NCBI GenBank assembly: GCA_018061065.1 | Contig: JAGOUV010000003.1 | Span: forward strand, 1 to 64,000 | DNA length: 64,000 nt | From: Candidatus Altimarinota bacterium | GTDB lineage: Bacteria > Patescibacteriota > Gracilibacteria > UBA1369 > UM-FILTER-53-11 | Reading direction: 5' to 3' | Part shown: positions 12,028 to 14,674 of the stretch, piece by piece | Numbering within the stretch: the first letter of the stretch is position 1 | Layout of the letters: each line of letters begins with the position of its first letter | Position numbers and translations under genes: made by a program | Notes under the pieces: generated by a model | The model's database searches: none | Told to the model about the DNA's origin: nothing | The model's input: only the letters and a program-made list of their open reading frames with translations

Positions 12028-12504
12028 TTATCTTATTTTGTCAAGGGCACTCCAGATCGCATCAGAAGCAAATCCTCTGCTGGCCAACAATCGTTGCACC
12101 TTTTGCTTTTGCTTCATTCCCGTCAGTGATCGAAAAAGACGTTCTTTTGACTTGAGAAATTCTTTAATCAATTCACGCTCGTTAATATCTGCTTTATCCC
12201 ATTCCTCAAGTGCTTGATCCTTAGGAATACCTCGTTTTTGCATATCGTGAATAAAACCCCACTTTCCAACCGGATGCATGGGTAGGTGAAACTGAAGGTA
12301 ATTGATAATTACCTGTCTGTCGTTTATATAGTTTAATTCTTTTAAACGCGCCACGATCTGATCGATGATTGTAATCATCTCGGGCTCCTCTAGTTTTATT
12401 CGCTTAGCACGCAACTTGAGCTTTCCTCTCAACTGATGCTCGCTATAACTTTTGCGTCCCAAGAGACGGAAACAATACTGCAGTAGTGAATCGTACATTT
12501 TCAT
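12028..12504 (-). CDS. recX: Regulatory protein RecX
   Basis: RecX binds RecA filaments and limits recombinase activity. At 158 residues it matches the family: N-terminal LLGRKSYSEHQLRGKLKLR, then three-helix repeats including LKELNYINDRQV, HLPMHPVGKWGFIHDMQKRGIP and a C-terminal QRLLASRGFASDAIWSAL. It lies directly downstream of recA on the same strand, the classic arrangement, separated by a hairpin that probably lets only part of recA transcription through. Confidence 0.9.
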   Translation of the reverse strand: MKMYDSLLQYCFRLLGRKSYSEHQLRGKLKLRAKRIKLEEPEMITIIDQIVARLKELNYINDRQVIINYLQFHLPMHPVGKWGFIHDMQKRGIPKDQALEEWDKADINERELIKEFLKSKERLFRSLTGMKQKQKVQRLLASRGFASDAIWSALDKIR

Positions 12505-12513
12505 ACTGAAAAG

Positions 12514-12541
12514 GGGTTGTCCCGCGTGCGCGGGACAACCC
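12514..12541 (-). terminator. recA-recX intergenic hairpin (attenuating terminator)
   Basis: A perfect inverted repeat GGGTTGTCCCGCG / CGCGGGACAACCC with a 2-base centre (the real loop is probably 4-6) lies between recA and recX. Read on the minus strand it is followed by CC and TTTT. The strong stem with a short U-tract fits a leaky terminator lowering recX relative to recA, as known for recA-recX in other bacteria. Confidence 0.8.
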
Positions 12542-12552
12542 TGCTATGATTA

Positions 12553-13617
12553 TTAATCCTCACTTTCTACATCGTCGTCAAAATCTTTCTCCTTTGCCTC
12601 AGGTGGCTTTGCATCATTTGCTAAGACAAACTTACGGATGTCTGCATCGATTGCCTTCGCAATCTTTTCATTTCCCGTGAGGAAGCCCTTAGCACTCTCA
12701 CGTCCTTGACCCAACTTGATATCGCCGAAAGAGTAGAACGCACCGCTCTTGTGCACCCGGTCGTACTTAACACCCAAATCAATGAGCTCACCCGTATAAG
12801 AAATACCTTTGTTATACATAATATCGAACTCAGCTGTACGGAATGGAGGAGCCATCTTATTCTTAACTACCTTTACGCGTGCGCGCACTCCTACAATTGA
12901 TTTTTCATCTCCCGTACCATCTTCAATCTTACCGATTGAGCGAATATCCATACGTACTGAAGAATAAAACTTGAGCGCATTTCCACCCGTAGTTGTCTCA
13001 GGATTTCCGAACATAACCCCAATCTTCATACGAATCTGATTGATAAAGATAACTGAGGTCTTAGATTTGCTAATAGCAGAGGTGAGCTTGCGCAATGCCT
13101 GGCTCATAAGACGAGCCTGGAGACCCATGTGGCTATCACCCATGTCACCTTCGATTTCAGCCTTAGGAGTAAGAGCGGCAACAGAGTCCACCACTACTAC
13201 ATCAACTGCATTTGAACGTACCAAGGTTTCTGTAATTTCCAATGCCTGCTCACCACTATCAGGCTGTGAAACGAGCAAGTTATCAACATCTACCCCAATT
13301 TTGCGTGCATACTCAGGATCCAGAGCGTGTTCTGCGTCCACAAAGGCACACTGGCCACCGCGCTTTTGAGCCTCAGCAATAATATGAAGCGTAAGTGTTG
13401 TCTTACCAGAAGACTCAGGACCAAAGATCTCACAGACACGACCGCGTGGAATACCACCGCCGAGCGCGAGATCTAATGATATTGAACCCGTCGAAATAGT
13501 TTCAATAGGTAGTCTCTTTGAATCTCCCATTTTCATAATAGTTCCTTTACCAAAGTTTTTTTCAATCTGCGCAAGAGCCAGATCGAGGGCTTTCTTCTTT
13601 TCATTTTGCTGTGCCAT
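12553..13617 (-). CDS. recA: Recombinase RecA
   Basis: DNA-strand-exchange recombinase and coprotease of the SOS response. The 354-residue protein is typical: short N-terminal oligomerisation helix, Walker [10 protein letters not shown] at 66-74, Walker B-like [12 protein letters not shown], loop L1 region ([18 protein letters not shown]), [17 protein letters not shown] leading into loop L2, and an acidic C-terminal tail (DDDVESED). No intein is present. The promoter 50-80 bases upstream contains a palindrome between -35 and -10 that looks like an operator. recX follows. Confidence 0.98.
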
Positions 13618-13667: not shown

Positions 13668-13696
13668 AGTATATATGAGTGCACACTCACAGTCAA
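13668..13696 (-). promoter_or_regulatory. recA promoter
   Basis: On the minus strand TTGACT (13691-13696), a 17-base spacer and TATACT (13668-13673). The transcript would begin about 45 bases before the recA ATG. Confidence 0.8.
13676..13689. promoter_or_regulatory. Palindromic operator inside the recA promoter
   Basis: TGAGTG-CA-CACTCA is a perfect 6+6 palindrome filling most of the spacer between -35 and -10 of the recA promoter. A bound repressor would block polymerase. It matches neither the E. coli LexA box (CTGT-N8-ACAG) nor the Gram-positive one (GAAC-N4-GTTC). A LexA-type or other damage-responsive repressor is inferred. Confidence 0.55.
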
Positions 13697-13858: not shown

Positions 13859-14674
13859 ATGAGAAACAATAGAATACTTTTAGTGGCATTAGTGCTCATC
13901 CTCTGTGGAGCGGGGGTAACCTTTGCGTATCAATATCGAGGACAGGTGAAACAGTATCTTTCTGATTTGCGAGCACCTGAGCTGCCCATGGAAGAACCCG
14001 TAACCGTGAGCGTTTTAACGCCTGAGCCGTCACCTACTCCTAAAGCAGCAGAACCTAAGGTGGAACCTAAGATAGAACCAAAAGTTGAACCAAAAAAAGA
14101 GGAAAAAATTCCAGCACAAAAAAATCTCGCCGTTCCTTTTACCACTCAGGCTCCCCATCAAAATTGGGACATGCCCTACCAAGAAGCATGCGAGGAAGCG
14201 ACCGTATTGATGCTTGACGCTTTTATAAAAGGATACGCACTCACTCCCGACTCTGCCGATGCAGCTCTCTTGAAAATTGTGGACTGGGAAAATAAAAACC
14301 TTGGATACTATAAAGACACTACCACCGCGGAAACTCTGCAAATTCTAAAATCACACTTTGGGATAAAAAATGTAGTTATAAAAACGAATGTCACCGCCGA
14401 ATTAATTAGAAAAGAAATTGCATTAGGACATCCGGTAATCTTGCCCACTGCAGGACGTATGCTTAAAAATCCGAACTTTAAGGCACCCGGCCCGTTGTAT
14501 CACATGGTGGTGGTAAAAGGATATCTTGCAGATGGTCGTTTTATTACTCACGATCCGGGCACGCGCAACGGCAAAGACTATATCTATACTGAAGAGGTAC
14601 TGCTAAATGCCACTCACGACTGGAATGGAGGAGATGTTGCAAACGGTCAAAAAGTGATGATTACGATACAGTAG
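13859..14674 (+). CDS. Secreted or membrane-anchored C39-like peptidase
   Basis: A 271-residue protein with an N-terminal membrane anchor or signal (about residues 5-25, ILLVALVLILCGAGVTFAY). A Pro/Glu/Lys linker with PKVEP-type repeats (about 55-85) follows, then a papain-like C39-family domain. The likely catalytic Cys is in YQEACEEA near 117, the His in YHMVVVKGY and the Asp in ITHDPGT. Unlike true C39 leader peptidases there is no ABC transporter part, so this is probably a free exported hydrolase. The 240-base gap before it is AT-rich and holds the divergent recA promoter. Confidence 0.8.
   Translation: MRNNRILLVALVLILCGAGVTFAYQYRGQVKQYLSDLRAPELPMEEPVTVSVLTPEPSPTPKAAEPKVEPKIEPKVEPKKEEKIPAQKNLAVPFTTQAPHQNWDMPYQEACEEATVLMLDAFIKGYALTPDSADAALLKIVDWENKNLGYYKDTTTAETLQILKSHFGIKNVVIKTNVTAELIRKEIALGHPVILPTAGRMLKNPNFKAPGPLYHMVVVKGYLADGRFITHDPGTRNGKDYIYTEEVLLNATHDWNGGDVANGQKVMITIQ

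Follow-up and report, generated by a model that had tools for sequence, protein, structure and literature searches.

The recA promoter and its inverted repeat

In the stretch of DNA analysed here (64,000 nucleotides, hereafter the window), a short inverted repeat lies between the two hexamers of the recA promoter, which raises the question whether it is an operator and, if so, which repressor would recognise it. Read directly on the minus strand from 13696 to 13668, the promoter is TTGACT-gTGAGTGTGCACTCAta-TATACT, with the -35 hexamer TTGACT at 13691..13696 and the -10 hexamer TATACT at 13668..13673 (both minus strand). The spacer between them is exactly 17 bp long, and most of it is taken up by the 14-mer TGAGTG-N2-CACTCA. 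This element, annotated as a predicted LexA operator or SOS box (TGAGTGCACACTCA, 13676..13689, no strand assigned), consists of perfect inverted arms of 6 bp around a centre of 2 bp. An earlier note on this DNA had placed such a 14-mer within a 17-base spacer between TTGACT and TATACT, which the direct reading bears out, and had called it a perfect palindrome; this description fits the two 6-bp arms but not the central CA/TG, which is not self-complementary. The assignment of the promoter to recA, likewise made in that note, is corroborated by the gene at 12553..13617 (minus strand, 354 aa), which scores 541 bits with TIGR02012 (cut-off 325) and whose start codon is situated 58 bp downstream of the operator. 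The divergent neighbour of recA (window 13859-14674, plus strand) encodes a C39-like peptidase (PF13529).

Concerning its occurrence in the genome, a pattern search found TGAGTGNNCACTCA only once in 1.30 Mb, and the degenerate form TGAGYRNNYRCTCA six times, as compared with about 1.2 occurrences expected from base composition. Three of these six sites are located at recA, lexA, and dinB; the chance that all three genes have a site at a distance of at most 240 bp is of the order of 1e-11. The other three exact sites (C11:25280 and C4:31407, both intragenic, and C11:31084 at a pab-like operon) were rejected as operators and judged to be chance occurrences, because they lack the promoter frame.

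The dyad cannot be identified with any of the established LexA boxes that were searched for, as CTGT-N8-ACAG, GAAC-N4-GTTC, and GTTC-N7-GTTC are without a match both in the whole window and upstream of the lexA gene of this genome. The first two of these are the E. coli-type and the Bacillus-type consensus. This agrees with the initial impression that the dyad matches neither known LexA box.

Conservation of the dyad within the order

The recA upstream regions of 82 genomes from 16 families of the order were compared with those of nine genomes from other orders of the class. Within the order, 79 of the 82 recA promoters contain a recognisable dyad (61 with the strict form TGAGYRNNYRCTCA, 17 with one mismatch, and one with a looser match), with the consensus TTGACGGTGAGYRNNYRCTCACCTATAMT; the earlier note had proposed this comparison, with absence from the promoters of relatives as the outcome that would speak against an operator, and the palindrome is instead kept almost throughout. 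It is absent from all nine recA promoters of the other orders. Among shuffled recA upstream regions, the strict form appears in 17 of 82,000.

Nearly all recA sites of the order are situated directly 3' of TTGAC and directly 5' of TAnnnT, and among the recA-associated strict sites that were classified, both elements are present in 32 of 32. Concerning the three promoters scored as lacking the dyad, that of G072 contains by eye a one-mismatch copy in the right frame (TGATTGTTTACTCA), the contig of G031 ends within the upstream region, and in G011 no site was recognised; in G024, which belongs to the same genus as G011, the recA match has a degenerate context. The consensus of 105 promoter-framed sites is TTGACGGTGAGTGNNNNCTCACCTATANT. 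In the family to which the window belongs, the outer GG/CC of the dyad is changed to RT/YA. The recognition helix of LexA is likewise different in this family; it reads SDGFVVHCIKSL in this genome and SDNSILKHLKAL in most of the order.

Of 45 genomes of the order, 42 contain the framed pattern TTGACN(1-4)GTGAGN6CTCAC, as opposed to one of 196 elsewhere in the class and one of 275 when the phylum apart from the order is considered. If the frame is not required, 76 of 99 relatives contain GTGAGYRNNYRCTCAC, with at most 15 sites per genome, and its reversed form, used as a control, occurs only twice in total across these 99 genomes. In a contig scan for recA comprising 80 mostly distant loci, a strict site is present only in L046 ('Candidatus Peregrinibacteria'), the stretch of which is identical to G081, a member of the order; the order is thereby placed as Peregrinibacteria-like.

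Different dyads are seen after TTGACA in other orders of the class, namely AGTGAACATCTGTTTACT upstream of recA in G096 (L315) and AGTGTAAATATTATCACT upstream of lexA in G090 (L385), and these may be the SOS boxes of their respective orders.

LexA and the lexA promoter

The genome encodes a single S24-domain protein above threshold, which is LexA (202 aa; TIGR00498 with 138 bits against a cut-off of 111). It comprises the DNA-binding and the self-cleavage domain (PF01726 and PF00717) and could be aligned from end to end with crystal structures of LexA, the Ala-Gly of the cleavage site, the Ser, and the Lys being in register.

The lexA promoter of this genome, TTGACTA-TGAGCGCGCGCTCA-TATATACT, contains the same dyad at the same place as in the recA promoter. 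The element TTGACTATGAGCGCGCGCTCATATATACT occupies positions 7-35 bp ahead of the lexA start codon, and given a gap of no more than 6 bp between the predicted -10 element and this codon (G000:C20:11327-11355), lexA may be transcribed into a leaderless mRNA. Operator-like sites, some of them with one or two mismatches, are present at recA as well as at lexA in each of the six genomes of the family. In other families of the order, the lexA promoter often carries two sites 21-23 bp apart, i.e., at a distance of about two helical turns. In some members of the order, the sites at lexA or recA are degenerate or were not recognised (e.g., lexA in G011 and G014, recA in G011).

Predicted regulon

In the genome under study, the recognised regulon amounts to about four genes, namely recA (followed by the recX-like gene), lexA, dinB, and a gene for an HNH-type nuclease. 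The dinB site overlaps the first codons and is without a clear -35 element, and the HNH-type nuclease gene has a one-mismatch site (TGAGTATTTACTTA) shortly 5' of its start. A search at other repair genes, suggested in the earlier note, has thus turned up the same dyad at the lexA promoter and at dinB, and a one-mismatch copy at the nuclease gene.

For the order as a whole, 176 distinct sites were considered, and the genes that follow them were clustered and then identified. Here too, the dyad is found 5' of repair genes (lexA, radA, dinB, dinD, and rmuC), and the number of sites per target is 32 for recA, 29 for lexA, 8 each for radA and dinD, 6 for dinB, and 4 for rmuC, in a sample in which TTGAC-framed sites are favoured, since this frame was a requirement in one of the searches. 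Apart from recA, lexA, radA, and dinB, the targets identified comprise dinD (NF008573), rmuC (PF02646), and DUF2130, as well as a DNA-methyltransferase-like gene (recognised by eye) and genes for RhuM (PF13310), Bro-N (PF02498), KilA-N, and AntA proteins. The latter four, all phage-antirepressor-like, are frequent targets in the order (L288, L286, L143, L151, L155, and others). At recA, radA, dinD, and rmuC, the sites exhibit the TTGAC and TAnnnT frame in every case.

In the order-wide clustering, at least 28 strict sites lie just 5' of members of one HNH-like family, and only one of 28 has the TTGAC frame. The C-terminus of these proteins is HNH-like by eye, and the family has no confident match in Pfam or NCBIfam. 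Its members are dispersed proteins of about 280-400 aa (G000:C16:14901-15722 in the genome under study; L223, L244, L281, and L429-L457), and a genome contains many matches, the maximum being 45 in G011, with fragments included.

Interpretation of the dyad

The dyad in the recA promoter is very probably the LexA operator, i.e., the SOS box, of this order, to which LexA is predicted to bind. The suggestion that it might be the SOS box of the lineage, with which the study of this locus began, is supported by its conservation at recA and by the sites at lexA, dinB, and the HNH-type gene. The reading draws on the anatomy of the promoter, on the order-wide conservation at recA and lexA, on the identity of LexA together with its catalytic residues, and on the bias of the targets towards repair genes. 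Points against it are the degenerate or unrecognised sites at lexA or recA in some members of the order, the position of the dinB site over the first codons without a clear -35 element, and the chance-like character of three of the six exact sites in this genome.

A chance palindrome deserves mention, as a degenerate dyad of 14 bp is expected about once per genome; conservation in 79 of 82 recA promoters, set against the 17 strict matches among 82,000 shuffled regions, leaves this explanation a practically negligible probability, and together with the reversed-pattern and composition controls it rules it out. The constant TTGAC/TAnnnT frame at recA, radA, dinD, and rmuC would also be expected of a special spacer sequence that characterises a strong or stress-sigma promoter and involves no repressor. 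The two-fold symmetry with free central bases, the tandem copies at lexA, and the sites of the HNH-type genes, which mostly lack the TTGAC frame, nevertheless point to a bound dimer and not to polymerase, so that such a promoter feature is highly improbable.

Another repressor, either a different HTH protein or a different S24 protein, might use the dyad to co-regulate the repair genes, with LexA binding elsewhere, and several relatives indeed have more than one S24-domain protein. This is improbable as well, though less so than the promoter feature, for in the present genome LexA is the only S24 protein above threshold, and a site in the promoter of lexA itself is the usual mark of LexA autoregulation.

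If the dyad is the LexA operator, established knowledge of LexA suggests the following course of events: A canonical LexA dimer would bind TGAGYRNNYRCTCA between the -35 and the -10 box and would bar RNA polymerase from the recA promoter as well as from the lexA promoter. Upon DNA damage, RecA filaments formed on the damaged DNA would bring about self-cleavage of LexA at the Ala-Gly bond, and this cleavage would release recA and the recX that follows it, along with lexA, dinB, and all further genes bearing a site.

A wider reading, which is held tentatively and falls somewhat short of an even chance, is that TGAG-N6-CTCA constitutes an undescribed class of LexA box confined to this order, which has been adopted by a multicopy orphan family of HNH-type nucleases and by Bro-N, RhuM, and KilA-N proteins. 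Were this true, DNA damage would turn on mobile-element-like nucleases along with repair genes in bacteria with small genomes.

Comparison with known SOS boxes

The SOS box of Firmicutes and Actinobacteria is GAAC-N4-GTTC, and that of Escherichia coli is CTGT-N8-ACAG. With Firmicutes and Actinobacteria, the present system shares a canonical LexA (LexA_DNA_bind and Peptidase_S24), a palindromic operator overlapping the promoter, and, here as a prediction, autoregulation of lexA and targets that include recA and dinB, whereas the arms differ (TGAG-N6-CTCA instead of GAAC-N4-GTTC). The position of the operator in the promoter and targets of the recA, lexA, dinB, and dinD type are shared with Escherichia coli; the differences lie in the sequence itself, in the fixed position of the dyad within the 17-bp spacer, and in a recognised regulon of only about four genes in this genome.

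LexA motifs specific to a lineage have been derived by comparative genomics also in other phyla, and 17 distinct motifs had been counted by 2021 (PMC8565304). Examples of lineage-specific motifs are the direct repeat TTACACATATTTTWTACATA of Balneolaeota and the motifs GGA-N5-TCC or CTAA-N5-TTAG of Bacteroidetes (both PMC7739468, PMC8565304). The latter are bound by a non-canonical repressor, whereas the LexA described here is canonical. An SOS network of Patescibacteria, i.e., of the same superphylum, is the subject of a study by Sanchez-Osuna, Barbe and Erill (2017, Environ Microbiol 19:3465), as cited in PMC7739468 and PMC8565304; PMC7739468 groups it with reports in which LexA proteins have evolved towards direct-repeat motifs, whereas the motif found here is an inverted repeat. 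The 2017 study may already list the motif of this order. In the searchable literature, of which that study is not a part, no prior report of TGAG-N6-CTCA as a LexA box was found. As it is known that the LexA box differs from one phylum to another, TGAG-N6-CTCA is considered a new sequence form of a known device, with priority subject to the 2017 study.

An uncultivated order is hereby given a concrete sequence for its SOS box, together with a prediction of its regulon. The sequence of the LexA box has changed while the core targets (lexA, recA, and the error-prone polymerase) have been kept, and the change has a sharp boundary at a single order. The motif allows DNA-damage regulation to be read from metagenome-assembled genomes of the order, and it flags accessory genes predicted to be under damage control, above all the HNH-type family.

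The region downstream of recA

Behind recA, a recX-like gene (12028..12504, minus strand) with matches to PF21981 and PF21982, and with sub-threshold matches to several RecX models of NCBIfam, is probably part of the recA operon. Between the two genes, a GC-rich hairpin of 12 bp is followed by CUUUUC (12514..12541, minus strand; -26.6 kcal/mol, z = -5.5). Judged by its structure, the hairpin with its short U-rich run is possibly an attenuator that lowers the expression of recX, or else a weak terminator.
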